Below, piece by piece: positions 1,899-36,040 of a DNA stretch of 64,000 nt (its first letter is position 1; every line of letters begins with the position of its first letter). Both the position numbers and the translations under genes were made by a program. This DNA is from Actinomyces capricornis (GTDB taxonomy: Bacteria; Actinomycetota; Actinomycetes; Actinomycetales; Actinomycetaceae): positions 620,001-684,000 of the forward strand of contig NZ_AP025017.1 of NCBI RefSeq assembly GCF_019974135.1, read 5' to 3'. The notes under the pieces are model-generated. The model saw only the letters and a list, made by a program, of their open reading frames with translations. It was not told where the DNA came from and searched no databases.

Positions 1899-2093
1899 CC
1901 CGCCGCGGCCCCACGGGCCGCGCAAGGGAAGGATCACAATCGGATCAGGCCGCGAGCCCGGGGCCGGCGGCGGGCAGCGTCGGTCGGGGCCGGCGCGCCA
2001 CGCGGGGCCGGCGGGCAGGGACGGCATCGGGGCATGAGCGACCCGGCGGGCGCAGAAGTGCCCGATCGGGCAGATATAGGCCACACTAGGGCC

Positions 2094-2987
2094 ATGCGAG
2101 GCATCATCCTGGCCGGCGGCTCCGGCACGCGACTCAACCCCATCACCCTGGGCACCTCCAAGCAGCTGGTGCCGGTCTACGACAAGCCGATGATCTACTA
2201 CCCGCTGAGCACCCTCATGCTCGCCGGCATCCAGGATGTCCTGATCATCACCACTCCCCATGACGCCCCCAGCTTCCACCGCCTGCTGGGCGACGGCTCC
2301 CAGCTGGGCGTCAACCTGTCCTACACCGTCCAGGAGGTGCCCAACGGACTGGCCCAGGCCTTCGTCCTGGGCGCGGAGTTCATCGGCTCTGAGAGCGCCG
2401 CCCTGGTCCTGGGCGACAACATCTTCTACGGCCCGGGCATGGGCACCCAGCTGCGCCGCCACACCAGCCCCACCGGCGGTGTCGTCTACGCCTACCAGGT
2501 CGCCGACCCCAGCGCCTACGGCGTGGTGGAGTTCGACGCCGACTTCCGGGCCGTCTCCATCGAGGAGAAGCCCGCCGAGCCCAAGTCCGACTATGCCGTG
2601 CCGGGCCTGTACTTCTACGACAACGACGTCGTCGAGATCGCCAAGGCCCTCAAGCCCTCGGCGCGCGGGGAGTACGAGATCACCGACGTCAACCGCACCT
2701 ACCTGGAGGCGGGCCGCCTGAGCGTGGAGGTCCTGCCCCGCGGCACCGCCTGGCTGGACACCGGCACCTTCGACTCCCTGGCCGACGCCACCAGCTTCAT
2801 CCGCACCGTCCAGCACCGCCAGGGCCTCAACATCGGCTGCCCCGAGGAGGTGGCCTGGCGCATGGGCTTCATCGACGACCAGGGCCTGCGCTCCCGCGCC
2901 GAGCCACTGGTGAAGTCCGGCTACGGCCAGTACCTCCTGGACATCCTGGCCCGCTCCCGGCGCGGCCACGGGGCCGATGGGCGCTGA
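2094..2987 (+). CDS. rmlA: Glucose-1-phosphate thymidylyltransferase
   Basis: 297 residues. It makes dTDP-glucose from glucose-1-P and dTTP, the first step to dTDP-L-rhamnose. The protein opens directly with [14 protein letters not shown], the nucleotide-binding loop, followed by the [18 protein letters not shown] segment and the LGDNIFYG metal-site motif near residue 107, all classical for RmlA. An in-frame ATG 60 nt upstream would add residues with no family counterpart, so the ATG at 2094 is preferred; a TATAGG -10-like box sits at 2075. The partners rmlC-rmlD (17.1-18.6 kb) and rmlB (35-36 kb) are in the same window but not in the same operon. licD follows after 74 nt. Confidence 0.96.
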
Positions 2988-3061: not shown

Positions 3062-4036
3062 ATGAGCTCCACTGAGAACTCCACTGAGCCCGGCGCATCC
3101 AGGGCACCGGGGGAGTCCTCCGGTGGGCCCACCGGCCCGGCCCCGTCCGGCCCCATCGACGGCACCGCCGATGAGGCGACGCTGCGCCGGGTGCAGCGGG
3201 CCACCACCCATGTGCTGCGCGAGCTGGACCGGGTGTGCGGTGAGCTGGGCATCGCCTACGCCGTCTACGGGGGCACCGCCATCGGCGCTGTGCGCCACCG
3301 GGGCTTCATCCCCTGGGACGACGACGTGGACGTGTGCATGCCCCGGGCCGACTACGAGCGCTTCCTGGAGCTGGCGCCCGGGGTGATCGGCGAGGACTTC
3401 GTGGTGATGAGCCAGCGCTCCCACCGCGACTACCCCAAGACCTTCGCGGTCATGGGACTGGTGGGCACGGAGTTCGTGCCGGCGGCGGCGGCCGACCGCG
3501 CCTTCCCCGTGCCCATCGGGGTCGATGTCTTCCCCCTGGACCGGGTGCCGCGGGACCGGCGGGCCTTCCGCCGTCAGAGCCGCCGCACCTGGGTGTGGGG
3601 GCGCCTGCTCTTCCTCCACGGCAGCGCCACCCCGGAGACGGGGCTGACGGGCGTGGTCGGGGCGGCGGCCTCCGCCGTCTTCCACGCGGTGCACGGGACG
3701 ATGAAGGGGCTGCGGGTCCCGCCGTCGGCCCTCTACCAGCGCTGGGAGCAGGCGGCGCGCCTGTACGAGGACGGCTCGGGCCGCAGTGCGGGGGGCTCGC
3801 GGGTCCTGGGGGACTACTCCACCCAGGAGCCGCTGCGCTGGTCGGCCAGCGAGGCCGAGCTCCTCCCCACCTCCCGTGTGCCCTTCGAGGACATCATGGT
3901 CGAGCTGCCCCGCGACTACGACGCCGTGCTGCGCCGCGGCTACGGCGACTACATGGAGCTGCCGCCCCCGGAGCAGCGGGTCAATCACAAGCCGGTGCGG
4001 GTGGACTTCGGCCGCCACGACCCCGACGCCATGTGA
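3062..4036 (+). CDS. licD: LicD-family phosphotransferase, copy 1
   Basis: 324 residues. LicD proteins transfer phosphocholine from CDP-choline (in some lineages other phospho-groups) onto a surface glycan. The family core is clear: GGTAIGAVRHRGFIPWDDD with a following DVDVCMPRADYERF (residues about 72-100), where the acidic cluster binds the metal. A 40-residue Ser/Pro/Gly-rich N-terminus precedes the domain. The start has a purine-rich AGGAGAGAAGAGG stretch just upstream. Co-directional with rmlA and probably in its transcript. The choline kinase/cytidylyltransferase at 8.9 kb and the choline permease at 10.7 kb argue that choline is the group transferred. It ends in a convergent intergenic region holding hairpin element 2. 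Confidence 0.9.
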   Translation: MSSTENSTEPGASRAPGESSGGPTGPAPSGPIDGTADEATLRRVQRATTHVLRELDRVCGELGIAYAVYGGTAIGAVRHRGFIPWDDDVDVCMPRADYERFLELAPGVIGEDFVVMSQRSHRDYPKTFAVMGLVGTEFVPAAAADRAFPVPIGVDVFPLDRVPRDRRAFRRQSRRTWVWGRLLFLHGSATPETGLTGVVGAAASAVFHAVHGTMKGLRVPPSALYQRWEQAARLYEDGSGRSAGGSRVLGDYSTQEPLRWSASEAELLPTSRVPFEDIMVELPRDYDAVLRRGYGDYMELPPPEQRVNHKPVRVDFGRHDPDAM

Positions 4037-4073
4037 GCCCGGCGATCCGGTGGGGCGCCGCTCGGCGACGGGG

Positions 4074-4150
4074 GCGTCACATCGCGACGTGGACGTACCC
4101 TGCAGGTGTCGCCTGAGTCGCGAAGTGACGCACACGTCGCGAAACGACGT
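4074..4150. repeat. Intergenic hairpin element 2, with 19-nt-spaced half-sites
   Basis: Between the convergent stops of licD (4036) and the flippase (4196). The left arm GCGTCACATCGCGAC (4074-4088) pairs with 4117-4131 with one mismatch. A second copy of the right half-site (GTCGCGAAACGACG at 4136) starts 19 nt after the first. It shares the GTCACTTCGCGAC core with element 3 and, less exactly, with element 1. Confidence 0.75.
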
Positions 4151-4195
4151 CGAACCTGAGCCCGCCCGCGCCTGCCGACAGGCCGACGACGCCCC

Positions 4196-5524
4196 TCAGG
4201 CCCTCAGGCGTCGGTAGTCGCGGGTGAAGAAGGCGGCCAGGACGGCGACGGCGGTCCCGTAGGCGGCCACACCCACCCAGCTGACGCCGTTCATGCCGAA
4301 GGCGGCCACCATGATGCTGGAGAAGACGAGCGTGACGGCGACGGCGGCCGCGTTGCCCAGGAAGCTGGCCTTGAAGTCCCGCAGCGCCAGGAGCAGGTCG
4401 TTGAAGAACCATGCGAAGGCGGTCATGAGGGTGCACAGGATCGTGGGCTGGAGCAGGCCAATGTAGGGCAGGACCTTGTCGCCGAACATGAGCCACAGGA
4501 TGGGGCGGCCCAGGAAGAGCAGGGCGATCGAGATGAGGGCGGTGACCGCGATGAGGGCCAGGACCGTCTTGCCCAGCAGGCGCAGCCCCGCCCGCTTGTC
4601 GCTCTGGAAGGCCTTGGCGAACTCGCCCATGAGGGGGCTGTAGACGTAGACCGCGCCCATCTGGACGATGACCGCCGGGGCGGCGATGGAGGAGTAGATG
4701 CCCAGGGCGCCCTCCCCCATGTCGTGGGCCAGCTGTTGTCGCGGGATGGCCAGCACTGCCGAGCTGGCGACCTGGGCCAGGACCAGCGGCAGCAGGGAGG
4801 CCAGGACCGCCAGCGCCGGGCGCCGGGCGATGATGGGGCGCAGGGGCTCGAAGCGGATGGTGCGGGGAACGTCGTAGAGGATGGCCACGCCGGCCACCGC
4901 CACCGCCATGAGCCCGACGGCCACCTCCAGGGAGTTGGTCAGCCACAGCCCGATGCAGAAGACCGCCAGGGTGGTCACGCCCTGGAGGATGTAGGACAGG
5001 CCGATGTAGTCCATGCGCCGGTGGCGCTGGTCGATGGCGTGGAAGCCCTCGATGAAGGTGGTGATGATGGAGTAGACGAGGTAGAGGGTGATGACGCCCA
5101 GGGAGGCCCAGCCGTTGGTCGCCAGGGAGTAGGCCACCCCCAGGGCGAAGGCGATGAGGGAGGTCAGCACCCGCAGCCCCACATACTCCCGGGAGCTGCG
5201 CTCACCGGTGACGTCGGTGACCTGGAGGGTGCGCAGGCGGAACTCGGCGAAGGGGATCGCCAGGCTGGAGACAGTGGTGGCCAGGGTGAGCACGCCGTTG
5301 GCGTCGAAGCCGCGCGACAGGCGCACGACGGCGATGGTCACCAGGTAGTTGCACACCAGTCGGGTGATGGACCCGCCGGTGTTCCACAGCATGTTGGTGC
5401 GCAGGGACAGCCCGCCGGCCCGCTCCCCCTCATCGGCCCTCCCCGGCTCACGCGGGTCCGATGCCAGGGGCTGGGGCATCGTCGGCTCCTCGGCTGTCCC
5501 GGGCGTCCCGGGGGTGGCTGACAC
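4196..5524 (-). CDS. Polysaccharide flippase (Wzx/MATE-like), copy 1
   Basis: 442 residues with about twelve to fourteen hydrophobic segments, the size and shape of a Wzx/PST-type lipid-linked oligosaccharide flippase. It would move undecaprenyl-linked repeat units across the membrane. Near residue 85 it carries RTLQVTDVTGERSSREYVGLRVLT, and the flippase at 11.7-13.0 kb has the matching RAYHVTDVGHRFSFGTYLATRL at a similar place, so the two are paralogues. Start is GTG, with GGGGAG ten bases upstream. The GT2 gene upstream ends 12 nt away and is certainly in the same operon. The substrate cannot be read from the sequence; the neighbouring LicD enzymes suggest a ChoP-decorated unit. Confidence 0.87.
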   Translation of the reverse strand: MSATPGTPGTAEEPTMPQPLASDPREPGRADEGERAGGLSLRTNMLWNTGGSITRLVCNYLVTIAVVRLSRGFDANGVLTLATTVSSLAIPFAEFRLRTLQVTDVTGERSSREYVGLRVLTSLIAFALGVAYSLATNGWASLGVITLYLVYSIITTFIEGFHAIDQRHRRMDYIGLSYILQGVTTLAVFCIGLWLTNSLEVAVGLMAVAVAGVAILYDVPRTIRFEPLRPIIARRPALAVLASLLPLVLAQVASSAVLAIPRQQLAHDMGEGALGIYSSIAAPAVIVQMGAVYVYSPLMGEFAKAFQSDKRAGLRLLGKTVLALIAVTALISIALLFLGRPILWLMFGDKVLPYIGLLQPTILCTLMTAFAWFFNDLLLALRDFKASFLGNAAAVAVTLVFSSIMVAAFGMNGVSWVGVAAYGTAVAVLAAFFTRDYRRLRA

Positions 5525-5536
5525 GGTCGGTCTCCC

Positions 5537-6484
5537 CTATCTGAAGATGGTGTGGCGGGCCACCAGGGCCGGCAGGTAGCAGGCGATGGCCATGGCCTTG
5601 TTCGGGGCCATGGAGACCGCTCCGCGCTGGCCCGCCAGGCGGCATCCCACGAGGTAGAGGAGTGTCTCGCGGGCCACGCCCTTGAGGGTGGTGGATCGCT
5701 GGGCGCAGTAGCGCTTGTGCTTCCAGTAGCCGATGGGGTTGCGCTTGGCGTTGGCCGCGAAGTTGTGGGTCAGCCCGTCGGGCAGGTAGTGGCAGATGGT
5801 GAGGATGGTGTTGTCGGCGAGCATGTCGTAGTGCTCATCGAGGCGGTAGTACACGGAGGTCTCGGCGATGAAGATCTCACCGGGGGCGACGTCGTAGGGG
5901 TGGTCCCGCAGCACCTCGGTGCGGTGGATGAGGGAGGTGTCCCCCCGGAATCCCATGGTCTCGAACAGGTCCCAGTACTTGACGTCCGTGGCGCCCTCGG
6001 GCATCCAGGTCTCCATGGGGGTGGCCTCATCGGTGCCGCGCAGGGCCACGATGCCGGCATAGCGGTCCTGGCCCTCGATCGTCCTCCACACGGAGAGCAC
6101 ATGCTCGATGGCGGTGGGCACCAGCCAGTCATCGGAGTCGACGACGAAGAACAGCGGGCTGGTGGTTCGCTCCACCCCCACGTTGATGGCCCGGGGCTTG
6201 CCGCCGTTCTCGGTGCGCACGTAGTCGATGGCGATGCGGCCCTCCTCGATCCAGGAGCGCACGAGCTCCTCGGTGGAGTCGGTGGAGCCGTCGTCGACGA
6301 TCATCCACACGAAGTCCTGGGAGGTCTGAGCCACCAGGCTCTGGTAGAGCACAGGCAGGATGTAGGCGCGCTCGTAGGTGGGGGTGAAGACGCAGACGGT
6401 GGGGGGCGTACGGTCCTGCTCCTGGGCCCGGGCGCCCGGCCCGCCGGTGGGCGCAGCGGAGGGATGGCTCACGTGCTCAGTCAT
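5537..6484 (-). CDS. Family 2 glycosyltransferase
   Basis: 315 residues. The GT-A nucleotide-sugar fold starts near residue 33 (TVCVFTPTYERAYILPVLYQ), with the VDDGSTDSTEEL motif and a DSDD metal-binding motif near residue 120. It is a cytoplasmic, membrane-associated enzyme adding one sugar to a lipid carrier. Longer open sequence upstream is the shadow of licD; the ATG at 6484 overlaps the licD stop by eight bases, which indicates translational coupling. The context (licD upstream, flippase downstream) points to assembly of the acceptor sugar for ChoP. Donor and acceptor are unknown. Confidence 0.9.
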   Translation of the reverse strand: MTEHVSHPSAAPTGGPGARAQEQDRTPPTVCVFTPTYERAYILPVLYQSLVAQTSQDFVWMIVDDGSTDSTEELVRSWIEEGRIAIDYVRTENGGKPRAINVGVERTTSPLFFVVDSDDWLVPTAIEHVLSVWRTIEGQDRYAGIVALRGTDEATPMETWMPEGATDVKYWDLFETMGFRGDTSLIHRTEVLRDHPYDVAPGEIFIAETSVYYRLDEHYDMLADNTILTICHYLPDGLTHNFAANAKRNPIGYWKHKRYCAQRSTTLKGVARETLLYLVGCRLAGQRGAVSMAPNKAMAIACYLPALVARHTIFR

Positions 6485-7331
6485 GGTGGGCCTCGCCGTC
6501 GTGCTCCGGGTGGACCCAGGTGACCGACCGCAGGTGGGAGGGCGGGCGCTCCTCGGGAGGCGGCACGCGCCTCCAGTCGCCGTAGTAGGAGGTGAGGACC
6601 TCCTCGGCCCGGGCAGGCACCGCGAAGGACTGCCCCTCGAAGGTGGCCCGACGGGCGGGCAGGAGGTCGTCGGGGGCCAGGATGTTGCGGTCCATGGAGT
6701 CGTCGGTGAGCAGCACGTAGCGCAGGTCCTCCTGGCGCGCCCCCGCACCGGCACCGGCCGAGCGGGCCAGGGCGTCGGCCTTGCGGGCGACATCGTAGGG
6801 GTCGATGCGCCGGGTGAAGGGGTGGATGAGGCGCTTGACCAGGCGGGCGGCGGTGGAGGTGGCGTAGCGGGGGTCGGTGGCGGCCAGGTGGCGCCACCAC
6901 ACGAGGCGGGAGGCCCGCTTCTTGATCCGCTGCAGGCGGGGGTCGGTGAGGTCGACGCGCTCCAGGGGGAAGATGTCCACCCACAGGCCCAGGGCATTGC
7001 GCTCGTCGATGAAGGTCTCCTCAGCGCGGGTGCGGGTGTCCACCAGCTTGAAGAAGGGGTAGATCGAGGAGCGGTCCCGGTAGGAGGCTATGGTGAAGCG
7101 GGGGTCCAGGGCGCCGTCCTGGTAGAGGCGGTAGAGCCGCTCGTAGTCGGCCCGGGGCATATGCACGTCGATGTCGTCATCCCAGGGGATGAAGCCCTCG
7201 TGGCGCAGGGCCCCGATGAGGGTGCCGTAGGCCAGGACGTAGGTCAGGCCGTGCTCCGCGCACAGGCGGTCCAACTCGCGCAGGCAGTCCAGCTCGACCT
7301 TCTTGATCTCCTCCAAGGAGAGCGAACCCAT
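6477..7331 (-). CDS. licD: LicD-family phosphotransferase, copy 2
   Basis: 284 residues. It contains YVLAYGTLIGALRHEGFIPW followed by DDDIDVHMPRADYERLY (about residues 27-63), the LicD catalytic core, and lacks the long N-terminal tail of copy 1. The ATG at 7331 begins MGSLSLEEIKKVELDCLREL, the normal start of the family; upstream in-frame sequence is not homologous. It heads the minus-strand arm licD-GT2-flippase. The plus-strand arm carrying licCA and licB starts 222 bp away in the opposite direction. Having two LicD copies suggests two acceptor residues or two glycans. Confidence 0.9.
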   Translation of the reverse strand: MGSLSLEEIKKVELDCLRELDRLCAEHGLTYVLAYGTLIGALRHEGFIPWDDDIDVHMPRADYERLYRLYQDGALDPRFTIASYRDRSSIYPFFKLVDTRTRAEETFIDERNALGLWVDIFPLERVDLTDPRLQRIKKRASRLVWWRHLAATDPRYATSTAARLVKRLIHPFTRRIDPYDVARKADALARSAGAGAGARQEDLRYVLLTDDSMDRNILAPDDLLPARRATFEGQSFAVPARAEEVLTSYYGDWRRVPPPEERPPSHLRSVTWVHPEHDGEAHHD

Positions 7332-7512
7332 TGCGGCCCTTCCCTTCACGACGTCCGTGCCCGCCGCACCGGCCAGTGCCCTGGCGGCAGCGGCGCCACG
7401 ATGGTACCTGCTCAAGCGCTCGGGCCGCGCCCGCCGGTGGCTCCCAGCCGCCCCGTCCCGCCACGAGTCGGCGCGGGTCGGCGCGGGTCGGCGCACACTC
7501 GCCGGCCCGCCG

Positions 7513-7518
7513 TAGCAT
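7513..7518 (+). promoter_or_regulatory. Candidate -10 for the plus-strand GT2-DUF2304 arm
   Basis: TAGCAT lies 34 nt before the ATG at 7553. A start point near 7525 would leave a short leader containing AGGAG (7542-7546) at a normal distance from the ATG. No convincing -35 is visible. Confidence 0.4.
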
Positions 7519-7552
7519 GGGCACTGTCTGCGCCCCGGCCGTCAGGAGCCCC

Positions 7553-8314
7553 ATGCCCACACGTGTCCCTCGAACGCTCGTCATCATGCCCGCCTGGAAC
7601 GAGGAGGCGGCCATCGGCGAGACCATTCGCGAGCTGCGTCGGGCCGTCCCCGACTACGACCTCCTCGTGGTCAACGACGGCTCGCAGGACCGCACCTCCC
7701 AGGTCGCCCGGCGGGCCGGGGCCCACGTCCTGGACCTGCCCTACAACCTCGGCGTGGGGGGCGCCATGCGCGCGGGCTACAAGTTCGCCCACCGCTTCGG
7801 CTACGAGCGCGCCATCCAGGTCGACGCCGACGGCCAGCACGACCCGCGCGACATCGAGGCCGTCCTGGAGGGCCTGGAGCGCTCCAACATCTCCATCGGG
7901 GCGCGCTTCGCCGAGGCCGGGACCTACAGGGCCCGCGGCCCGCGCCGCTGGGCCATGGTCATGCTCGCCGCGATCGTGGGGCGCGTGGCCAGGACCCGGC
8001 TCACCGACGTCACCAGTGGATTCAGGGCCGCCGACGCCACCGCCATCGACCAGTACTGCCTGCACTACCCCGCCGAATACCTGGGCGACACGATCGACTC
8101 CCTGGTCATCGCCCTGCGCTCGGGCCTGACCGTCAGCCAGGTGGGGGTCTCCATGCGCCCGCGCCAGGCCGGCACACCGTCGAACAACCCGTGGAAGTCC
8201 GCCATCTACCTGGGCCGCAGCATGTTCGCCCTGTTCATCTCCCTGACCCGCCGCCCCATCGACCGCACCCGGCGCCCCACCACGGCGCCCAGTGCCGCGG
8301 CCCAGGAGGCCTGA
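7553..8314 (+). CDS. Family 2 glycosyltransferase (DPM1/GtrB-like)
   Basis: 253 residues. LVIMPAWNEEAAIGETIREL opens the GT-A domain; VVNDGSQDRT and QVDADGQHDPRD (about residue 90) are the nucleotide and metal motifs of polyprenyl-phosphate sugar transferases related to DPM1/GtrB. Such enzymes load a single sugar onto the lipid carrier for later transfer outside the cell. ATG at 7553 has AGGAG six bases upstream; an ATG at 7517 is also in frame but has no ribosome site. The DUF2304 gene starts two bases after the stop, and the same pair recurs at 57.2-58.3 kb. Confidence 0.9.
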   Translation: MPTRVPRTLVIMPAWNEEAAIGETIRELRRAVPDYDLLVVNDGSQDRTSQVARRAGAHVLDLPYNLGVGGAMRAGYKFAHRFGYERAIQVDADGQHDPRDIEAVLEGLERSNISIGARFAEAGTYRARGPRRWAMVMLAAIVGRVARTRLTDVTSGFRAADATAIDQYCLHYPAEYLGDTIDSLVIALRSGLTVSQVGVSMRPRQAGTPSNNPWKSAIYLGRSMFALFISLTRRPIDRTRRPTTAPSAAAQEA

Positions 8315-8316
8315 CC

Positions 8317-8805
8317 ATGCTCCAGCTCTTCTACGTCCTGGTGGCGGCCCTGACGGTCTTCTTCATCCTGGCCCTGCTGCGCAGCCGGAGGCTGCGGGAG
8401 AAGTACGCCGCGCTGTGGATCGTCGTCGGCCTGGCCATCGTGCTCCTGGCCACCGTGCCAGGCCTGCTCAAATCCCTGTCCCAGCTCCTGGGCTTCGAGG
8501 TGCCCTCCAACCTGCTCTTCGTCCTGGCGATCTTCCTGCTCCTGGGCGTGGCCCTCCACCTGTCCCTGGAGATCAGCCGGTTGGAGGACGAGACCCGGGT
8601 CCTGGCGGAGAACATCGCCATCCTCAACCTCATCGTCACCGAGGCGGGCCTGACCGAGCCACTGTCACACACCACCCCCACCGGTCCCGCAGGCCCAGCC
8701 GCCTCCACAGGCCGCATCCACTGCGCCGAGAGCCATCGCACCGCTGCGGGCCCCGAGTCCGCGGGCCCCCCGCAACCAGGCCCCCCACCCACCACCACGG
8801 ACTAG
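8317..8805 (+). CDS. DUF2304 small membrane protein
   Basis: 162 residues with three hydrophobic segments (about residues 3-20, 32-48, 63-85), then an amphipathic acidic helix and a Pro/Thr/Gly-rich soluble tail. The pattern RSRRLREKYAALWIVVGLAI is typical of DUF2304. These proteins sit next to GtrB-like glycosyltransferases and probably assist membrane anchoring or flipping of the lipid-linked sugar; that is inference from neighbourhood. AGGAGG lies eight bases before the ATG and overlaps the end of the GT2 gene. Translation of the two is surely coupled. Confidence 0.85.
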   Translation: MLQLFYVLVAALTVFFILALLRSRRLREKYAALWIVVGLAIVLLATVPGLLKSLSQLLGFEVPSNLLFVLAIFLLLGVALHLSLEISRLEDETRVLAENIAILNLIVTEAGLTEPLSHTTPTGPAGPAASTGRIHCAESHRTAAGPESAGPPQPGPPPTTTD

Positions 8806-8850
8806 GTGCTCGACGCCACACCCCCATACGTTCAGGTTCCGCCCCCTGGG

Positions 8851-8856
8851 TACTAT
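8851..8856 (+). promoter_or_regulatory. Candidate -10 for licCA
   Basis: TACTAT in the 88-nt gap before licCA predicts a start point near 8863 and a 31-nt leader. A second box, CATGAT at 8882-8887, lies exactly six bases before the ATG and would give a leaderless transcript. The sequence cannot decide between them. Confidence 0.4.
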
Positions 8857-8893
8857 TCTCGAACGCACCCACAACCCCTTCCATGATGAACGG

Positions 8894-10750
8894 ATGGTGC
8901 CTTTCGTGACCAGCCCAGCGGGCACGCTCACCCAGCCCCAGTTCGACGTCCTCTACGCCCTCCTGCGCGCCGGGGCCGCCCTGACTCAGCGCCAGATCCA
9001 CGAGTCCACCGGCATGTCCCTGGGCAGCGTCAACACCGCGGTGCGCGAGTGCGAGGCGCTGGGCCACATCGCCGAGCGCGCCATCACCGACGCCGGCCGG
9101 CGGGCCCTGGAGCCCTACCGGGTGGACAACGCCGTCATCATGGCCGCCGGGCTCTCGCGCCGATTCGCGCCGATCTCCTACGAGCGCCCCAAGGGCACGC
9201 TGCGCGTGCGCGGGGAGGTGCTCGTCGAGCGCCAGATCCGCCAGCTCCAGGAGGCCGGGATCACCGACATCACCCTGGTGGTGGGCTACAAGAAGGAGTA
9301 CTTCTTCCACCTGGCCGAGCAGCTGGGGGTGCGCATCGTCGTCAACGACGACTACGTCACCCGCAACAACAACGGCTCCCTGTGGCTGGTGCGCGAGGAG
9401 CTGGGCAACACCTACGTGTGCTCCTCGGACGACTACTTCACCGTCAACCCCTTCGACTCCCACGTCTACAAGGCCTACTACTCGGCTCAGTACGTCGAGG
9501 GCCCCACCCAGGAGTGGTGCCTGACCACCGGCCCCGGCGGGCGCATCACCGGCGCCCAGGTCGGCGGCGCCGATGCCTGGACGATGCTGGGCCACGTCTA
9601 CTTCGACCGCGCCTTCTCCGCCGCCTTCCGCCGCATCCTGGAGCGGGTCTACCACCTGCCCGAGACGCTGCCCAAGCTGTGGGAGTCGATCTACATCGAG
9701 CACGTCAAGGAACTCGACATGGTCATCCGCCACTACCCGGCGGGGGTCATCAACGAGTTCGACTCGGTGGACGAGATCCGCGGCTTCGACCCCATGTTCA
9801 TGGAGAACCTCGACTCCGAGGTCTTCGACAACATCGCGGCCTCCCTGGGGTGCGCCAAGTCCGAGATCCAGGACTTCTACCCGCTCAAGCAGGGCATCAC
9901 CAACCTGTCCTGCCACTTCTCGGTCGCGGGCCGGGAGTACGTCTACCGCCACCCGGGCATCGGCACGGACAAGATCGTGGATCGCCAGGCCGAGATCGAG
10001 GCCCTGCACCTGGCCCGCGATCTGGGCCTGGACGGCACCTTCCTCGTCGGAGACCCGCTCAAGGGGTGGAAGATCTCCCGCTTCATCCCCGGCGCCCACA
10101 ACCTCGACGCCTCCAGCACCCACGAGCTCTCCCAGGCCATGACCATGGCGCGCAGCCTCCACCAGAGCGGGAGGACCCTGTCGCGCAGCTTCGACTTCAT
10201 CCAGGAGGCCGCCCGCTACGAGGGGCTGCTCCAGGAGCACGGCCCCATCGACGTCCCCGGCTATCCCGAGCTGCGCGAGAAGATCATGCGGCTCAAGACC
10301 CATGCCGACGCCGACGGCTTCCCCCTGGTCCCCAGCCACAACGACTTCTTCCCCCTGAACTTCCTGGTCGACCCCCGCGACGGCATCCACCTCATCGACT
10401 GGGAGTACGCCGGCATGTCCGACGTCGCCAACGACTTCGGCACCATGGTGGTGTGCGCCGAGCTGTCCGAGGAGCGCGCCGATGAGGCGCTCGGCTTCTA
10501 CTTCGGCCGCACGCCCACCGACGTCGAGCGCCGCCACTTCTGGTCCTACGTCGTCTTCGCCGGGTGGTGCTGGTACGTGTGGGCCCTGGTCAAGGCCGCC
10601 GAGGGCGACGACGCCGGGGAGTGGCTCCTCATCTACTACCGCCACGCGGCCAACTACGTCGACGCCCTCCTGGCGTCCTACGACTCCGGCACCACCGAGC
10701 TGCCCTCCCCCCTGGACAGCCACCGACTGAGCACGAGGAGCGGATCATGA
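8894..10750 (+). CDS. licCA: wHTH - phosphocholine cytidylyltransferase (LicC) - choline kinase (LicA) fusion
   Basis: 618 residues, three parts. Residues about 10-65 form a winged helix (LTQPQFDVLYALLRAGAALT, then QRQIHESTGMSLGSV). From about residue 79 a nucleotidyltransferase domain begins NAVIMAAGLSRRFAPISYER and continues PKGTLRVRG, with VVGYKKEYF and SSDDYF, as in LicC, which makes CDP-choline from phosphocholine and CTP. From about residue 331 a choline/ethanolamine kinase domain carries the phosphotransfer motif HNDFFPLNFL (about 482) and IDWEYAG (about 501). Fused LicC-LicA proteins are known, for example in Treponema denticola. The stop overlaps licB by four bases. The N-terminal DNA-binding-like domain could allow self-regulation or could be purely structural. 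Confidence 0.9.
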   Translation: MVPFVTSPAGTLTQPQFDVLYALLRAGAALTQRQIHESTGMSLGSVNTAVRECEALGHIAERAITDAGRRALEPYRVDNAVIMAAGLSRRFAPISYERPKGTLRVRGEVLVERQIRQLQEAGITDITLVVGYKKEYFFHLAEQLGVRIVVNDDYVTRNNNGSLWLVREELGNTYVCSSDDYFTVNPFDSHVYKAYYSAQYVEGPTQEWCLTTGPGGRITGAQVGGADAWTMLGHVYFDRAFSAAFRRILERVYHLPETLPKLWESIYIEHVKELDMVIRHYPAGVINEFDSVDEIRGFDPMFMENLDSEVFDNIAASLGCAKSEIQDFYPLKQGITNLSCHFSVAGREYVYRHPGIGTDKIVDRQAEIEALHLARDLGLDGTFLVGDPLKGWKISRFIPGAHNLDASSTHELSQAMTMARSLHQSGRTLSRSFDFIQEAARYEGLLQEHGPIDVPGYPELREKIMRLKTHADADGFPLVPSHNDFFPLNFLVDPRDGIHLIDWEYAGMSDVANDFGTMVVCAELSEERADEALGFYFGRTPTDVERRHFWSYVVFAGWCWYVWALVKAAEGDDAGEWLLIYYRHAANYVDALLASYDSGTTELPSPLDSHRLSTRSGS

Positions 10751-11712
10751 GGTTCGGTATCGTCTCGGGCTGCCTGTGGGGGCTGGATACTGTGGTCCTG
10801 GGCATCGCCCTGGCGATGTCCCCCTTCCTGGGGGCCGGCCAGGCCTCCCTGGCCAGCGCCCTGCTGCACGACGCCGTCTCCGCCATCATCCTCCTGGTCT
10901 ACATGCGGATGCGCGGGCGGCTGGGGCACACCCTGGAGGCCCTCAGGACCCGCAGCGGCAAGGCCGTCATGGCCGGCGCCATCATGGGCGGGCCGGTGGG
11001 GATGAGCGGCTACCTCATCGCCATCAACAACATCGGCCCCGGCTACACCGCCATCATCTCCACCTTCTACCCCGCCGTGGGCACGCTTCTGGCCTTCCTC
11101 CTGCTCAAGGAGCGGATGCGGCCCCGCCAGATTGTGGCGCTCATGGTGGCCCTGGCCGCCATCGTCCTCATCGCCTGGTCATCCTCGACGACGCAGACCG
11201 GCCCCTCCCCCATCATCGGGGTCGTCGCGGCCCTGGCCTGCGTCCTGGGCTGGGGAGGGGAGGCGGTCATCCTCGCCTGGGGGATGCGCGACGACAAGGT
11301 GGACAACGAGACGGCCCTGCACATCCGCCAGACGACGTCGGGGCTCGCCTACATCCTCATCGTCGCGCCCGTGGCCGGGATCGTGGGGTTCTCGGCGCAG
11401 GCCGCCCTGTCGCCCTCGATGGGCATGGTCTTCCTCGCCTCCCTGGCCGGCGCGGTGTCCTACCTGTTCTACTTCAAGGCCATCGGCCAGATCGGCGCCT
11501 CGCGGGGCATGGCCCTCAACATCTCCTACTCGGCCTGGGCCGTGGTCTTCGCCCTGCTCCTCCAGGGGACGGTGCCCACTGTCCTGCAGGTGGTGTGCTG
11601 CGTGGTCATCCTCGTGGGCACGGTGCTCGCGGCGACCCCCGACTGGCGCGACCTGCGCCCGGGGCCCCCGCGCAGCCGTACCGGAGCGGGAGCCCGGGTC
11701 CTCACCCACTGA
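10747..11712 (+). CDS. licB: LicB-type choline permease (DMT/EamA family)
   Basis: 321 residues, about ten transmembrane segments arranged as two EamA-like halves; opens MRFGIVSGCLWGLDTVVLGI. LicB imports choline for ChoP synthesis. Features supporting this rather than a general DMT exporter are its four-base ATGA overlap with the kinase/cytidylyltransferase fusion and the pattern GPVGMSGYLIAINNIGPGYT. Together licB and licCA give the complete uptake-activation route, with the two licD products as transferases. A flippase gene follows after 23 nt. Confidence 0.88.
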   Translation: MRFGIVSGCLWGLDTVVLGIALAMSPFLGAGQASLASALLHDAVSAIILLVYMRMRGRLGHTLEALRTRSGKAVMAGAIMGGPVGMSGYLIAINNIGPGYTAIISTFYPAVGTLLAFLLLKERMRPRQIVALMVALAAIVLIAWSSSTTQTGPSPIIGVVAALACVLGWGGEAVILAWGMRDDKVDNETALHIRQTTSGLAYILIVAPVAGIVGFSAQAALSPSMGMVFLASLAGAVSYLFYFKAIGQIGASRGMALNISYSAWAVVFALLLQGTVPTVLQVVCCVVILVGTVLAATPDWRDLRPGPPRSRTGAGARVLTH

Positions 11713-11735
11713 CCGGGCCCTCCCAGGCGGCAGCC

Positions 11736-13034
11736 GTGCGCAGCGACAGACCCCGGGCACCGGAGGCAGCGCAGCTCAAGCGCGACTACGCGTGGAACGC
11801 GGCAGCCTCCGTGTCGGGCTCCCTCGCCCTGGTGGTCATGCTCGCGGTGGTCAACCGGGCGGCCGGAATCGAGGCCCTGGGGCTGTACTCCCTGGCCATC
11901 GGGATCGGCCAGCTGTTCCAGACCCTGGGCATGTACGAGGTGCGGGCCTACCACGTCACCGATGTGGGGCACCGCTTCAGCTTCGGCACCTACCTGGCTA
12001 CCCGCCTGGTGACGGTGGCGCTCATGGTGCTGGGGATCATCGCCAACGCCCTGTGGGTCTCGCCCACCGCCTCCACCGCCCTGCTGGTCATCATGGTGGC
12101 CTGCCTGCGGGTCTTCGATGCCCTGGAGGACGTCTTCCTCGCCGAGTTCCAGCGGGCCGGGCGCCTGGACTTGGGAGGGCGGGCCGCCACGGTGCGCACG
12201 GCGGTGACCGTGGGCGTCTTCTGCCTGGCCCTCGCGCTTACCCGGGACCTGGCCGCCTCCGCCCTCGTGGCGCTGCCGGTGTCGGCGGCGGTGATGCTGC
12301 TGGCCTTCCTCCCGCCGGCACGCGGGCTTTTCGCGTGCCAGCCCCAGTGGCGGGCGCGGGCCATCGTCGGGGTGCTCGTGCAGTGCCTGCCGCTGTTCGT
12401 CGCCTCCTTCCTGGCGATGTACCTGGTCAATGCGCCGCGCTACGCGATCGCCGCCCACCTGGATCTGCGCGCGCAGGGCTGCTTCGCGATCATCTACATG
12501 CCCGCGGTGACCATCAACCTGCTCTCCCTGCTGGTCTTCCGGCCCCTGCTCACGCCGATGGCGGTGCACTGGGCCCGGGGGGAGCTCGCGGCCTTCACCG
12601 GCCGGATCCACCGGGGTCTGGCCACCACGGGCGTGGCCTTCCTGGTGGTGGCCGCGGTCGCCTGGCCGCTGGGGCCGTGGATCCTGGAGGCGGTCCTCGG
12701 CCAGGACGTCCGCCCCCTGCGCGCCGAGCTCATGGTGCTGGTGGCCGGGGGCGCCCTCAATGCGGCGGCCGTCATCCTCTACTACGCGCTGACCACGATG
12801 CGTCGCCAGCGCCTGGTCCTCCTGGGCTATGCGCTGGCCGCCGCCGCCTCCTGGGCCCTGTGCCGCCTGCTGGTGCCCCGCAGCGGGCTCATGGGGGCCT
12901 CCGCCGCCTACGCCGCCTCCATGGGGGTGCTGGCCGCCGCCTTCGCGCTCTGCCTGCTGCCGGCGTCGGGGATCGCCCGGGGGCGCGTGGGCCAGCGCTG
13001 GCCCACGCGCCACGGGCTGAGCAGGGGGCGCTGA
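11736..13034 (+). CDS. Polysaccharide flippase (Wzx/MATE-like), copy 2
   Basis: 432 residues, about twelve to fourteen membrane segments. The homologous N-terminus begins LKRDYAWNAAASVSGSLALV and contains RAYHVTDVGHRFSFGTYLAT, aligning with copy 1 at 4.2-5.5 kb. The long open frame extending upstream is the shadow of licB; the best start is GTG at 11736, with only a weak AGGCGG in front. Last gene of the GT2-DUF2304-licCA-licB-flippase arm. Probably exports the lipid-linked unit that is to be, or has been, modified with ChoP. Confidence 0.85.
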   Translation: MRSDRPRAPEAAQLKRDYAWNAAASVSGSLALVVMLAVVNRAAGIEALGLYSLAIGIGQLFQTLGMYEVRAYHVTDVGHRFSFGTYLATRLVTVALMVLGIIANALWVSPTASTALLVIMVACLRVFDALEDVFLAEFQRAGRLDLGGRAATVRTAVTVGVFCLALALTRDLAASALVALPVSAAVMLLAFLPPARGLFACQPQWRARAIVGVLVQCLPLFVASFLAMYLVNAPRYAIAAHLDLRAQGCFAIIYMPAVTINLLSLLVFRPLLTPMAVHWARGELAAFTGRIHRGLATTGVAFLVVAAVAWPLGPWILEAVLGQDVRPLRAELMVLVAGGALNAAAVILYYALTTMRRQRLVLLGYALAAAASWALCRLLVPRSGLMGASAAYAASMGVLAAAFALCLLPASGIARGRVGQRWPTRHGLSRGR

Positions 13035-14799: not shown

Positions 14800-14853
14800 G
14801 CCCGGATGAGCCCCGCCGGGCCCGGACCCGACGCTTCATCCTGACCCCTGCCT

Positions 14854-14930
14854 CGCGGATTCGCCCTTCAAGACGCGGATTCGCCCCTCCAGAGCCGGTC
14901 AATCCGCGTCTGGAGGGGCGACATCGCGTC
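14854..14930. repeat. Intergenic hairpin element 4, with 20-nt-spaced half-sites
   Basis: Between convergent stops at 14799 and 14964. Arms 14872-14893 and 14909-14930 pair over 22 bp with about three mismatches; the inner 13 bp (TCGCCCCTCCAGA with its complement) are perfect. The left half-site GCGGATTCGCCC occurs at 14855 and again at 14875, 20 nt apart. The sequence is unrelated to elements 1-3 but the architecture is the same. Confidence 0.8.
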
Positions 14931-14963
14931 GCTCGGGGATATCGGGACGATTCGGCGCGCGGC

Positions 14964-17102
14964 CTACCCGGCGGCGCCGGCCGCGCAGGCCGCCGAGCTG
15001 ACGGAGGCGGGCCCCGAGTCGGCGGTCGTGGGGTCGATGACCATCGGGTCCCATTGCGGCTCGATATCCGCCCACTCCCCCGGCTCCACCGGGCGGGCCT
15101 CGTCCTCCGCCAGGCGGCCGCCCTGGGGCGGCGAGTCCTGCCCCGGTGCGCCCTCGGAGAACTCAACCGGCTCGGATGAGGCTGCCGGAGCGGCCCCGGT
15201 ACCAGGATCAGGACTGCCCTCGGCACCTTCAGACGAGGTGATCGGACCAGACACGCTGCCACCGGCACCGGCCTCCTCCGCCCCCTCCTCACGGGAGCCG
15301 GGGTCCTGGGTTCCAGCGGCAACCGCAGCCGCGGCACCGCCGCCCACCACCGGGTCGCCCGCAGCCGAGGCGTCCACTGCCCGCGCCCCGGCCTGCCGGC
15401 CCTCACCGCCGCCACCGCGCGGGTCGGCGGGCTCCACCGGCTCCTCCTGGCCATGGGCGTCGAGGCCGCGGGCGAGCAGGAGGGCGCAGATGAGCGCCAC
15501 CGCGTACATGAGGGAGCCGATCGCCCAGACTCCCATGGGCGAGATCGGGATGTCCCACCACCACTGGGGCTGGAAGTCCAGGTTGATGGGCAGCCATCCG
15601 GCGGCATCCTTGCCCAGGTTCACCAGGCCGTGGGTGTAGCGCAGCAGGATGCGGTGCAGGGCGTAGGCGTGAGCCAGGCAGGACAGGCCCACGATGAGCA
15701 CCGCCTGCGGGGTGGACAGGATCCGCTCCCCGCTGCGCTGGCGCAGCCACACAAGGAGGAAGGGGGCCAGCAGCGGCAGGAGGTAGCGGGGCTGGAGCTC
15801 GTAGTTCGACTCGAAGCCCTGCGTGTAGGACAGCGCGGCGGGCAGGCAGACCAGCGCGCCGGCCAGGACCCCAGCCGACAGCAGCTTCCTCCAGCCCACG
15901 GTGCGGGCACCGATGAACAGGGCGATGCCCGCCAGGCCCAGGGCCATGACGGCGATCGGCCCGTCGAAGGGCACGTCGAACCAGCCCGCGCCCCAGCGGT
16001 CGCCCCCGTAGAAGCCCCCGAAGTACTCGGGGATGGTCAGGATGATGAGCTTCAGGCGCGTGCCGTTCGACAGCGCACTGGTGGGCTCGGAGGAGACCAC
16101 CGCCTGGGACTGCCCCGAGCCGAGCATCATCCAGGCGCCGATAGCGCTGACCACGGCCGCCACCGCGGCCTGCAGGAGCACCCGGCGGCGCCACCTCAGG
16201 CCGATGAACAGCGCCAGGGAGACCACGAGCAGGTAGAAGGCGGAATCACCACGGCAGGCGCAGGCCAGGAGGGCGCCCACCAGGGCCAGGCCCAGCAGCA
16301 CCCAGCGCCGTCGGCCCCGGCTGCGCAGCGAGCCGTACATGCCCGCGGCGTAGCCCAGCACGCCGGTCAGCGCCCAGGAACTGGGGTTGTTCGAGGCCAC
16401 GAGGTAGAGGCCCATGGGCATCCAGGCCAGGATGATCGCCAGGCTGTACTGCTCGCGCAGCCGCGCGGGCATGGCGCCACCGATGGCGCCCAGCAGGCCC
16501 ACGGCGATGAGCAGGTTGACCGCCCGCATCGTCAGCGCCGAGGTATCGACGTCGTCGCCGATGAGCAGGTGGTGGAAGCGGTAGTAGCCCTTGGGGTAGT
16601 TGCCGTCGTCGTAGCGGCGCGAGTAGATCTCGCTGTCCTCGGGCACCGCGCCCTGGCAGGAGGCGGGAACGTCGTCGTGGAAGGCGTAGCAGCGGGCGGT
16701 CTCCGAGACGCGCGAGGGCACCAGTACCTGGACCTCCCCGTTGTGCTCGCGCGTGGCGCAGCCCGAGGAGGACACCGGCCGCGGGCACCAGATGCTCCCC
16801 AGGTGGAAGTCGTCGTCGGGGGACCCGCCCACCGGGGAGGCCACCACCCAGCTCAGGCCCGTGGCCAGGACCGCGGCGGCCAGCACCAGTCCCAGGGCCC
16901 ACCGGGAGCCCGCCCGACGGCGGTCGGAGCGCCGGCCGGAGCGGTGCTGAGGGCCGTGCGTGGCGGCGAGCCGGCGCAGCGCGGTGCGGGCGGGCCCGGG
17001 GGAATCGGCCGTGGAGGACGGCTCTGCGGTGGCGGTGGCGGAATCGTGCACAGTGCTCTCAGGACTCTCGGTGGTCTCGGGGTTCTCAGGGCTCTCAGTC
17101 AC
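14964..17102 (-). CDS. DUF2142-like multi-span membrane protein, probable GT-C enzyme
   Basis: 712 residues. A Ser/Thr/Glu-rich cytoplasmic N-terminus (about 65 residues) precedes the first membrane helix. The extracytoplasmic loop then carries SPVGGSPDDDFHLGSIWCP, an acidic motif placed where GT-C polyprenol-dependent glycosyltransferases keep their catalytic aspartates. About ten to twelve further helices follow, then a 190-residue Ala/Glu/Ser/Pro-rich tail. Four Cys in the first loop may form disulphides. It would use a polyprenyl-phosphate sugar on the outer face, but polymerase activity is also possible. Its start overlaps the rmlC-rmlD stop by eight bases. Confidence 0.78.
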   Translation of the reverse strand: MTESPENPETTESPESTVHDSATATAEPSSTADSPGPARTALRRLAATHGPQHRSGRRSDRRRAGSRWALGLVLAAAVLATGLSWVVASPVGGSPDDDFHLGSIWCPRPVSSSGCATREHNGEVQVLVPSRVSETARCYAFHDDVPASCQGAVPEDSEIYSRRYDDGNYPKGYYRFHHLLIGDDVDTSALTMRAVNLLIAVGLLGAIGGAMPARLREQYSLAIILAWMPMGLYLVASNNPSSWALTGVLGYAAGMYGSLRSRGRRRWVLLGLALVGALLACACRGDSAFYLLVVSLALFIGLRWRRRVLLQAAVAAVVSAIGAWMMLGSGQSQAVVSSEPTSALSNGTRLKLIILTIPEYFGGFYGGDRWGAGWFDVPFDGPIAVMALGLAGIALFIGARTVGWRKLLSAGVLAGALVCLPAALSYTQGFESNYELQPRYLLPLLAPFLLVWLRQRSGERILSTPQAVLIVGLSCLAHAYALHRILLRYTHGLVNLGKDAAGWLPINLDFQPQWWWDIPISPMGVWAIGSLMYAVALICALLLARGLDAHGQEEPVEPADPRGGGGEGRQAGARAVDASAAGDPVVGGGAAAAVAAGTQDPGSREEGAEEAGAGGSVSGPITSSEGAEGSPDPGTGAAPAASSEPVEFSEGAPGQDSPPQGGRLAEDEARPVEPGEWADIEPQWDPMVIDPTTADSGPASVSSAACAAGAAG

Positions 17103-18576
17103 GGTCCCCGGCCTTCTGGACGAGGGAGGAGACGTAGTCCTCCAGTCGGCGCATGGAGTCGGCGGGGGTGAAGCCGGTGGCCTTGATCTTGGACAGGTCC
17201 AGGGTGGAGCACAGGGGGCGGGGGGCCACCTCCTGGCCGGCGAAGTACTCCTCGGTGGTGATCGGGGTGACCGACTCGGGGCTGTGCCCGGTCAGCTCGT
17301 AGACGCGCTTGGCCACATCGGCCCAGGAGACCACCTCGCCCTCGCCGGAGAGGTTGTAGGTGCCCCAGGGGGCGCCGGTGCTCAGCAGGTGGACGATGCC
17401 CTCGGCGAGGTCCGCGGTGAAGGTCAGGCGCCCGACCTGGTCGGCCACGACCTTGGGCTCCACCCCACGCTCGGCCAGGGAGGCCATGGTGCGCACGAAG
17501 TTCTTGCCCTCGCCCACCACCCAGGAGGTGCGCACGAGGTAGTGGCGGGGGGCCGAGGCCACGGCGGCGTCGCCCCCGGCCTTGGACTGGCCGTAGACGC
17601 CCAGCGGGCTGGGGTCCTCGTCCTCGGTGTGGATCTCGGCGGTGCCGTCGAAGGTGTACTCGCTGGAGATGTGCACCAGGGTCAGGCTGTGGCGGGCGGC
17701 GGCGCGGGCGAGGTTGGCCGGGCCGGTGGCGTTGGCCCGCCAGGACAGGCGCCGCCCCTCGGGGGTCTCGGCGCCGTCGACATTGGTCCAGGCGGCGGCG
17801 TTGATGATGATGTCGTAGGCGCCCCAGTCGGTGGCCTCCATGGCGGCGGCATCCGAGATGTCCACCTCGGGCAGGTCCACACCGGTGGCCGTGAAGCCCG
17901 CCTGGGGCAGGCGGGTCATGAGCTCGCGGCCCAGCTGGCCGTTGGCTCCGGTGACCAGCACCCTGCGGCCCGCGGGCGCCGTCGGGGCATCAGGGGCAGC
18001 AGACGACGTCGGGGCCGCGGGGAAGGGGGTGACCGCCTCCAGACGCGGGTGGGCGCGGTCCTTGTCGGACAGGATCGCCTCGCTCAACGGGATGGGCCAG
18101 GGCACGGCCACGGTCTCGTCGGCCAGGTTGAGGAAGGTGTACTGGGCCTCGGGGGACCAGTGGTCATTGACCAGGTAGGTGTAGGCGGTGCCCGGCTCCA
18201 GGGTCTGGTAGGCGTTGCCCACGCCCTTGGGCACGTAGACGGCCACGGAGGGGTCGATCTCACAGGTGTAGACCGCCCCGAAGGTCTCCCCCTCGCGCAG
18301 GTCCACCCAGGCCCCGAAAACCCGGCCGGTGGCCACCGAGACGTACTTGTCCCAGGGCTCGGCGTGGATACCGCGGGTCACGCCCGTCTCATCGTTGAAG
18401 GAGATGTTGTTCTGCACCGGGCCGAAGTCGGGCAGGCCCAGGGCGAGCATCTTCTCGCGCTGCCAGTTCTCCTTGAACCAGCCCCGGTTGTCCCCATGGA
18501 CGGTCAGGTCGATCCGCAGGAACCCCGGGATCGGTGTGGTCTCGATGCCCAGGGGCTTGGCGGTCTGGACGGTCAT
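17095..18576 (-). CDS. rmlC-rmlD: Bifunctional dTDP-4-dehydrorhamnose 3,5-epimerase / reductase
   Basis: 493 residues, two enzymes in one chain. Residues 1 to about 195 are RmlC: DNRGWFKENWQREKM, QNNISFNDETGVTRGIHAEP (catalytic His) and the cupin core. After a Pro/Ala linker, residues about 215-490 are RmlD: VLVTGANGQLGRELMTRLPQ, INAAAWTNVDGAE and the catalytic YGQSK. Together they carry out the last two steps to dTDP-L-rhamnose. GGAG lies seven bases before the ATG. The DUF2142 gene overlaps downstream. The fusion order C-then-D occurs in some actinobacteria. RmlA and RmlB are elsewhere in this window. Confidence 0.95.
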   Translation of the reverse strand: MTVQTAKPLGIETTPIPGFLRIDLTVHGDNRGWFKENWQREKMLALGLPDFGPVQNNISFNDETGVTRGIHAEPWDKYVSVATGRVFGAWVDLREGETFGAVYTCEIDPSVAVYVPKGVGNAYQTLEPGTAYTYLVNDHWSPEAQYTFLNLADETVAVPWPIPLSEAILSDKDRAHPRLEAVTPFPAAPTSSAAPDAPTAPAGRRVLVTGANGQLGRELMTRLPQAGFTATGVDLPEVDISDAAAMEATDWGAYDIIINAAAWTNVDGAETPEGRRLSWRANATGPANLARAAARHSLTLVHISSEYTFDGTAEIHTEDEDPSPLGVYGQSKAGGDAAVASAPRHYLVRTSWVVGEGKNFVRTMASLAERGVEPKVVADQVGRLTFTADLAEGIVHLLSTGAPWGTYNLSGEGEVVSWADVAKRVYELTGHSPESVTPITTEEYFAGQEVAPRPLCSTLDLSKIKATGFTPADSMRRLEDYVSSLVQKAGDRD

Positions 18577-28136: not shown

Positions 28137-28479
28137 GACGCATCCTTCGATTGAGTGGAGCCGGTCCAGTCCCACCACCGCGCTCGTGCCGCAGCGGGCC
28201 CGGGGCCCGCGAGGGTCGAGAGGCCCAGCGGGGCCCACCGCGACAGCCGCCCGGCTCGGACACCGGACGGGCGGGCCGGGGCTGTGAAGGGACCGGGGCG
28301 CTCGGGAGGACGACGGACAGGACGAGCGGCGCCGTCCCCCGCAGTAGGGGTCTGGCGCGCCCGCCCTACGCTACCACCATGCGCCGGCCGGCCACCGCGC
28401 CGGGAGACCCGCGGGTGGTCAGCCGGCCCGTAGGCGGCGGTCCCCGGGTGGTCGGCAGCCGGACTTATGAGCCAGTCGG
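28137..28479. other. Non-coding region between the island and the wzm operon
   Basis: No gene is supported. It is as G+C-rich as the surroundings up to about 28480, where composition drops sharply. It must hold the wzm promoter; no single -10/-35 pair stands out. Confidence 0.5.
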
Positions 28480-31650: not shown

Positions 31651-31653
31651 GGC

Positions 31654-34634: not shown

Positions 34635-36040
<1,406 letters not shown>

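Follow-up and report, generated by a model that had tools for sequence, protein, structure and literature searches.

A probable Lic-1 phosphocholine pathway in a rhamnose-polysaccharide island of Actinomyces and its association with choline-binding proteins

We analysed a window of 64,000 nucleotides (positions 620001-684000) from a 3.17-Mb single-contig Actinomyces genome, whose LicCA is closest, among those of named relatives, to that of Actinomyces bowdenii (94%). The window carries genes for LicCA, LicB and two LicD proteins beside rhamnose and polysaccharide-export genes, and the whole is best explained by a Lic-1 phosphocholine (ChoP) pathway embedded in a rhamnose-polysaccharide island, a reading to which we assign a probability of roughly 0.75. 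The same genome encodes choline-binding proteins (CBPs) whose repeats co-occur with LicCA across related genomes, and an inverted repeat, GTTC-N27-GAAC, is conserved upstream of licCA.

The lic genes and their products

A sequence-only reading of the window had proposed a lic-type gene set at 3062-13034, and family and PDB matches bear this out: LicCA, LicB, two LicDs, two family 2 glycosyltransferases (GT2), a DUF2304 protein and two flippases are all encoded there (Table 1), a grouping far beyond chance. The details that it gave also held, namely the four-base overlap of licCA and licB (LicCA ends at 10750 and LicB starts at 10747), the kinship of the two flippases (28.6% identity over 283 amino acids, E 2.5e-18) and the division into two divergent arms, which are separated by 221 bp. 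Beyond that reading, we found a winged-helix head on LicCA, an operator-like repeat and a choline-binding autolysin.

Residues 12-69 of LicCA match the MarR_2 winged helix (E 3.2e-9, over the Pfam cut-off), and a precomputed winged-helix domain is present in 119 of the best 120 of 3490 LicCA relatives (E <= 1e-60). The LicC domain matches PDB 1jyk (E 6.6e-38, chain positions 25-249 of 254), and the LicA domain matches the choline kinase PDB 4r77 (E 9.6e-30). When the pneumococcal LicA residues named in PMC4364537 were mapped onto the LicA domain, most of the choline pocket was found to be conserved. The cage aromatics Tyr197, Trp251 and Trp254 are kept and Tyr268 is replaced by Trp; Thr29, Asp176, Asn181, Asp194 and Glu196 are also kept, while Val178 is changed to Phe, Gln31 to Leu, Asn32 to Ser and Lys45 to Arg. 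The genome has no PF04991 match other than LicD1 and LicD2, which are 34% identical over 266 amino acids; both contain PWDDD(V/I)DV, which we take to be the catalytic motif.

The earlier reading had led from choline through CDP-choline to ChoP on a surface glycan. LicC, LicA and LicB match solved Lic proteins and the LicDs are placed by their Pfam family; the assignment of the pathway is well supported, and Lic-1 transfer of ChoP to a glycan is the best explanation. Display of ChoP at the cell surface is a step further from the gene matches and can be called very probable, being made likelier by the choline-binding repeats encoded elsewhere in the genome.

Among 54 named loci having at least 9 kb on either side of LicCA, tblastn (E <= 1e-5 and 45 bits) found LicD in 42, LicB in 46 and Wzx in 36, where absences may reflect low similarity or a location farther off. 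Four phage records carry LicCA-like pieces, which are distant and all below 60% identity.

Table 1. Features of the window, with positions counted from its first nucleotide
Feature	Position	Strand	Basis
RmlA, dTDP-rhamnose supply	2088..2987	+	TIGR01207 480.9 bits, over cut-off
LicD1, phosphocholine transferase	3062..4036	+	PF04991 4.1e-32, profile positions 1-107
Wzx1, Wzx/MOP-type flippase	4196..5524	-	PF01943 3.6e-5, under cut-off; homologous to Wzx2
GT2a glycosyltransferase	5537..6484	-	PF00535 8.3e-19, tested on stretch 5537-6388
LicD2, phosphocholine transferase	6477..7331	-	PF04991 7e-43, full-length
Divergent intergenic region between the arms	7332..7552	.	sequence reading
GT2b, polyprenyl-P-sugar synthase type, GacI-like position	7553..8314	+	PF00535 3.4e-20; NF058614 PpgS 4.2e-27, under cut-off
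DUF2304 membrane protein, GacJ-like	8311..8805	+	PF10066 5.5e-24; 3 hydrophobic stretches by hydropathy
GTTC-N27-GAAC inverted repeat, candidate licCA operator	8830..8864	.	conserved across LicCA upstreams
LicCA, winged helix + CTP:phosphocholine cytidylyltransferase + choline kinase	8894..10750	+	Pfam, PDB matches, residue mapping
LicB, choline permease	10747..11712	+	solved LicB PDB 7b0k, E 9.4e-33, residues 2-293 of 321
Wzx2 flippase	11736..13034	+	AlphaFold model vs WzxE
DUF2142 membrane protein, candidate GT-C transferase	14964..17102	-	PF09913 2.4e-41
RmlC-RmlD fusion	17095..18576	-	PF00908, PF04321
Wzt, ABC ATPase with Wzt_C domain, start approximate	26056..27306	-	PF00005 1.6e-20, PF14524 6.3e-16
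Wzm, ABC-2 polysaccharide export permease	27306..28238	-	PF01061 2.9e-15
CBP1, secreted-looking Amidase_2 + choline-binding repeats + Glucosaminidase, 944 amino acids	31800..34634	-	PF01510 2.9e-14; PF19127 2e-62; PF01473 1.9e-56 (9 stretches); PF01832 1.4e-7
RmlB-type dTDP-glucose 4,6-dehydratase	35000..36040	+	PF16363 1e-70

Choline-binding proteins co-occur with LicCA

A whole-genome repeat-family search found 34 choline-binding repeats, with a consensus of roughly GWxKxGGxWYYLxxxGAMATGW, in four proteins. CBP1 lies in the window next to the RmlB-type gene and has an N-terminal amidase, then the repeats, then a C-terminal glucosaminidase; the other three genes are at ~851.5-852.2, 854.0-854.5 and 158.4-158.9 kb of the genome. 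The N-termini of CBP1-4 look like signal peptides, as judged by eye, and an LPxTG motif was found in none of the four. The repeats match PDB chains of CbpJ, CbpF and LytA, and they also match glucosyltransferases and clostridial toxins, so that the repeat family by itself is no proof of choline. Two of the CBP genes are adjacent, and near them is a transposase-like gene (L126:7447-8793, by eye); one of the two encoded proteins also has an extended tandem repeat with many Glu, Pro, Thr, Asp and Lys residues.

Presence was called at E <= 1e-20 for LicCA and E <= 1e-3 for the repeats; since each genome was scored on a handful of top candidates only (3-6 for LicCA), some absences may be misses. 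In a family sample of 200 genomes, 48 had both, 20 had LicCA only, 4 had repeats only and 128 had neither (p 3e-25 by Fisher tests, which ignore relatedness), so that 48 of the 52 repeat-bearing genomes have LicCA. The corresponding counts in an order sample of 297 genomes were 11, 9, 2 and 275 (Fisher p 4e-13). A phylum sample of 366 genomes, in which 17 fused LicCAs were counted, gave 11, 6, 2 and 347; the two repeat-only genomes have one marginal match each, and none of 12 more genomes with kinase-only matches has repeats. Within the genus itself (37 genomes), repeats were found in 22 of 25 LicCA-positive genomes and in none of 12 LicCA-negative ones (p 2e-7).

The association was also seen when relatedness was considered. 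Permutation within five mixed genera (94 genomes) gave 32.5 expected compared with 48 observed, and 0 of 200000 permutations was as extreme. An rpoB tree was built from 90 of the 200 family genomes, of which 60 were picked from seven genera where LicCA varies and 6 are among the 37 of the genus. On this tree, 14 independent pairs that differ in LicCA had repeats differing the same way in a mean of 8.2 pairs, the opposite way in 0 and not at all in 5.8 (median p 0.008, range 0.002-0.031). In the reverse test, which had 13 pairs, the corresponding figures were 7.3, 0 and 5.7 (median p 0.016, range 0.008-0.063). Of 80 LicCA loci, 44 named ones were taken and 43 genomes searched: repeats were found in 33, and no repeats were found in A. 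gerencseriae, A. glycerinitolerans and eight others. Records with both LicCA and repeats include Actinomyces, Schaalia, Collinsella, Olsenella and Adlercreutzia. We consider it likely that the CBPs are held by the cell's own ChoP.

An inverted repeat is conserved upstream of licCA

The GTTC-N27-GAAC repeat was followed through 81 LicCA upstream regions, comprising the window, 21 loci that are mostly Actinomyces and Schaalia (L033-L053) and 59 that are mostly Coriobacteriia (L054-L112). A pair at spacing 26-28 is present in 73 of the 81, some of these loci being near-copies of one another. In the window and the first 21 loci the pair occurs in all 22, at exactly 27 in 21 and at 26 in one; in the other 59 loci it occurs in 51, at exactly 27 in 33. 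On average, letter shuffles allowing any spacing of 15-32 had a pair in 0.9 of 22 and 2.6 of 59 regions, compared with 22 and 52 observed. The raw counts by spacing were 64 at 27, 17 at 26 and 12 at 28, with at most 4 at each other spacing from 15 to 39. With flanking letters required (A or G right after GTTC, T or C right before GAAC, spacing 27-28), there were 64 copies in 18 kb of LicCA upstreams of the 80 loci compared with 22 in their other 1.51 Mb. When the 64 copies were aligned, A came right after GTTC in 86%, and otherwise no column between the half-sites exceeded 67% of one letter; this variability shows that the conservation is not simple sequence inertia.

At least two copies are present in 20 of the 81 upstreams, and the repeat is missing at LicCA in eight (L056, L073, L092, L093, L094, L097, L106 and L109). 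In L056 and L073 it stands instead ahead of same-strand genes preceding LicB and LicCA, and in L076 and L088 it also precedes a LicB gene that stands apart from LicCA. Because of the upstreams with several copies and the placements in these four loci, we rejected a mere promoter spacing effect as the main explanation of the repeat. Seven of 19 separate LicB genes have a 26-28 repeat within ~330 bases and 12 do not, and for several of the seven the neighbouring LicCA gene may be the true owner. Exact 7-base palindromes were also considered and are not the conserved element. A simple sigma-70 scan found no promoter at 8700-8920, and any -35/-10 pair under the repeat would therefore be assigned by eye only.

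As in trigger enzymes, LicCA has a DNA-binding domain fused to an enzyme and a conserved operator-like repeat at its own gene. This arrangement suggests that the winged helix of LicCA would be the simplest reader of the repeat, and we give even odds to autoregulation by the LicCA head.

A second GTTC-N27-GAAC pair in the window, at 31317-31351, ~110 bp upstream of a DUF6571 gene, could be chance. In L062 the repeat stands ahead of an ATP-binding cassette (ABC) solute-binding protein gene (Pfam-tested). At L059, L061 and L062 ~11960-16330 (Olsenella, Tractidigestivibacter), no LicB match was found near LicCA and a solute-binding protein gene is present instead. This gene is followed by apparent ABC ATPase and permease genes and then by a gene for a 295-amino-acid protein whose N-terminus resembles, by eye, the LicCA winged-helix head; the importer genes possibly encode another choline or phosphonate importer.

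The rhamnose island and a proposed mechanism

In the right-hand arm a GT2 gene is followed by a DUF2304 gene, and a Wzx flippase is encoded nearby, as in the GacI/GacJ/GacK arrangement. DUF2304 is typical of GacJ-like proteins directly downstream of a gacI homologue, and Wzx flips the decorative units (PMC8327497); GacK is a Wzx-type flippase and GacL a GT-C transferase (PMC8035078). Pfam gave no match for Wzx2, and a PDB sequence search found no relative of Wzx1 or Wzx2. The best match of the AlphaFold model of Wzx2 (predicted local distance difference test score, pLDDT, 89) was the lipid III flippase WzxE 9g9n (E 1.2e-9, template-modelling score 0.74), and the model has the MOP/Wzx fold of TacF-type flippases. 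In TacF, the arginines that read ChoP are R230 and R333 (PMC13385700). The GacI/GacJ-like arrangement, together with the rhamnose and Wzm/Wzt genes, makes a rhamnose-polysaccharide side chain the likeliest candidate for the ChoP acceptor, an assignment that we make tentatively and at somewhat less than even odds.

We propose that choline would be imported by LicB, phosphorylated and then activated to CDP-choline by LicCA. Inside the cell, the GT2 enzymes and the DUF2304 protein would build a lipid-linked sugar unit, to which LicD1 and LicD2 would move phosphocholine; once decorated, the unit would be flipped by Wzx1 and Wzx2 and attached to a wall polysaccharide by a membrane glycosyltransferase. 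The exposed ChoP would then hold secreted CBPs that lack a sortase motif, including the two-headed autolysin, whose gene lies 19 kb off. LicCA probably binds GTTC-N27-GAAC before its own gene and might in this way tune its synthesis to the choline supply. A bolder and rather doubtful version is that Actinomycetota have a closed ChoP economy unlike the pneumococcal design, in which LicCA would be a trigger enzyme that senses choline or CDP-choline and represses itself through an operator about three helical turns across, and in which GacI/GacJ-type lipid-linked side-chain units of a rhamnose polysaccharide would bear the ChoP, would be flipped by Wzx proteins dedicated to them and would anchor autolysins and other CBPs to the wall through this ChoP.

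Contrary observations and alternative explanations

The sole NCBIfam match of each LicD is Mf1 (1.8e-23 and 8.2e-15, both under the cut-off), a biochemically characterised ChoP transferase of Mycoplasma fermentans that adds ChoP to glucosyl diacylglycerol (PMC11982090). If the LicDs act like Mf1, the pathway would make a membrane ChoP-glycolipid or lipoglycan and not a wall polysaccharide. We regard this as unlikely, since two Wzx proteins, the GT2-DUF2304 pair, rhamnose genes and Wzm/Wzt in one island agree with the export of a lipid-linked glycan to the wall, and since the peptidoglycan hydrolase domains of CBP1 need ChoP near peptidoglycan.

Several observations weigh against the Lic-1 reading. 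Cys is aligned here with Glu213, the residue of LicA in contact with the choline charge, and LicD could transfer a different head group (phosphoethanolamine or an aminophosphonate, for example), activated by the LicC-like domain. Phosphonate nucleotidyltransferases are akin to LicC. Such enzymes have been reported (PMC6697681), and Mf1 also takes CDP-ethanolamine (PMC11982090). However, LicB matches the solved LicB over almost its whole length, the aromatic cage of LicA is conserved, and choline-type repeats in the same genome track LicCA; a head group other than phosphocholine therefore seems very unlikely to us.

A second contrary point is a homologue of phosphatidylcholine synthase (Pcs) at L125:1429-2172 (G000:C1 ~1.817 Mb; NF045887 E 5.1e-66, 222.6 bits against a cut-off of 300), for which a PDB sequence search found no relative. 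It can give imported choline a second sink, and phosphatidylcholine may be made in this Actinomyces from the same choline. For choline to feed mainly phosphatidylcholine, with the lic genes secondary or serving another product, is nevertheless extremely improbable, as Pcs uses free choline and CDP-diacylglycerol (PMC10434233), which would leave LicCA and two LicDs without a purpose. In addition, the lic genes form one linked cluster and Pcs is located elsewhere.

The distribution of the repeats also has its exceptions. Repeats are lacking in 20 of the 68 LicCA-positive family genomes (4 of the 20 are partial LicCA matches) and, by our search, in A. gerencseriae, which has LicCA and is TEPC-15 reactive according to PMC10434233; the CBPs are thus not obligatory. 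Conversely, G405, G423, G461 and G469, which form one clade, have repeats and neither LicCA (E <= 1e-20) nor LicD, and the ligand of their repeats may be foreign ChoP or another sugar. This clade, and the glucosyltransferases with similar repeats among the PDB matches, would fit CBPs that bind glucans or foreign ChoP (from host lipids or neighbouring streptococci) and not the cell's own. For the Actinomyces studied here we judge this rather improbable, although not negligible: LicCA accompanies all but four of the repeat-bearing family genomes, no independent pair went the opposite way, the wall-hydrolase domains of CBP1 need a wall ligand, and the repeats match CbpJ, CbpF and LytA.

Two further points concern parts of the proposed mechanism. 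DUF2142 may supply the GT-C step, a role that rests on a low-confidence model (pLDDT 68) whose best match, ArnT, is weak (E 7e-3). In this genome the GTTC-N27-GAAC pair is absent upstream of CBP1, the licD genes, the divergent-arm genes and rmlA, and it is also absent from the stretches with pcs and the remaining three CBP genes; there is therefore no whole-system regulon here.

Relation to known systems and significance

Fusion of choline kinase to cytidylyltransferase, as here, is also found in LicCA of Treponema denticola, which is said to serve phosphatidylcholine synthesis. In Haemophilus influenzae, licABCD are four separate genes and modify lipooligosaccharide, unlike the system described here, and we know of no choline-binding protein partners in that species. 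In pneumococcus LytA and LytB are separate proteins, whereas here the amidase and glucosaminidase flank the repeats within one protein. The four activities are the same in H. influenzae (PMC10434233), and S. pneumoniae lic1/lic2 shares LicA, LicB, LicC, two LicDs, a MOP flippase and repeat-bearing wall hydrolases (PMC4364537, PMC13385700). In contrast to S. pneumoniae, a single protein here joins LicC and LicA behind a winged helix, there are two flippases, and a GacI/GacJ-like pair and rhamnose genes adjoin. In the pneumococcal type of system teichoic acid carries the ChoP, and the genes around the present locus point to a rhamnose polysaccharide. The GacI/GacJ/GacK/GacL module of group A Streptococcus likewise has a GT2 beside DUF2304, together with a flippase of the Wzx type and a polytopic membrane protein near rhamnose genes (PMC8035078, PMC8327497). 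The present locus differs in having licCA and licB within the GT2-DUF2304-Wzx run of genes and in its additional LicD.

For A. gerencseriae and A. viscosus, Zhang et al. 2023 (PMC10434233) described Lic-1 enzymes and listed both species as TEPC-15 reactive, with a structure given as unknown. These are the same genus and the same pathway as here, and the ChoP pathway is thus not new for Actinomyces. The A. gerencseriae locus (L034) has 77% identity to the window in LicCA, 72% in LicB, 53% in LicD1 and 57% in Wzx2. The available text of PMC10434233 on Actinomyces Lic-1 names no winged-helix head, operator or CBPs. What is new is the co-occurring CBPs, the conserved operator-like repeat before a winged-helix enzyme and the GacI/GacJ-like setting. 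The pairing of surface ChoP genes with CBPs is best known from pneumococcus. In a search of the open-access literature, we found nothing tying LicD to CBPs in Actinomycetota. Such proteins are mentioned for an A. odontolyticus host of TM7x (PMC6166536), Bifidobacterium dentium (PMC2788695) and Arcanobacterium phocae (PMC8235330), in the available text with no link to LicD.

If the Lic-1 reading is true, many oral and gut Actinomycetota would have choline as a structural part of their wall, and it would decide, as in pneumococcus, which autolysins and surface proteins the cell can hold. The TEPC-15 reactivity of Actinomyces would gain a reason and a candidate acceptor would be named, and a choline kinase that doubles as a transcriptional regulator would become a testable idea. 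In an A. odontolyticus host, choline-binding protein genes are reported to be raised when the epibiont TM7x is present (PMC6166536), and a ChoP anchor may matter for this partnership too.

Other features of the window

No Rfam match was found within positions 1-36000 of the window. The G+C content is 55-60% at 28000-32000, compared with 68-77% across most of the window. This low-G+C stretch lies between Wzm and CBP1, covers a 702-amino-acid DUF6571 protein (29099-31207, - strand) and a small protein, and looks recently acquired.

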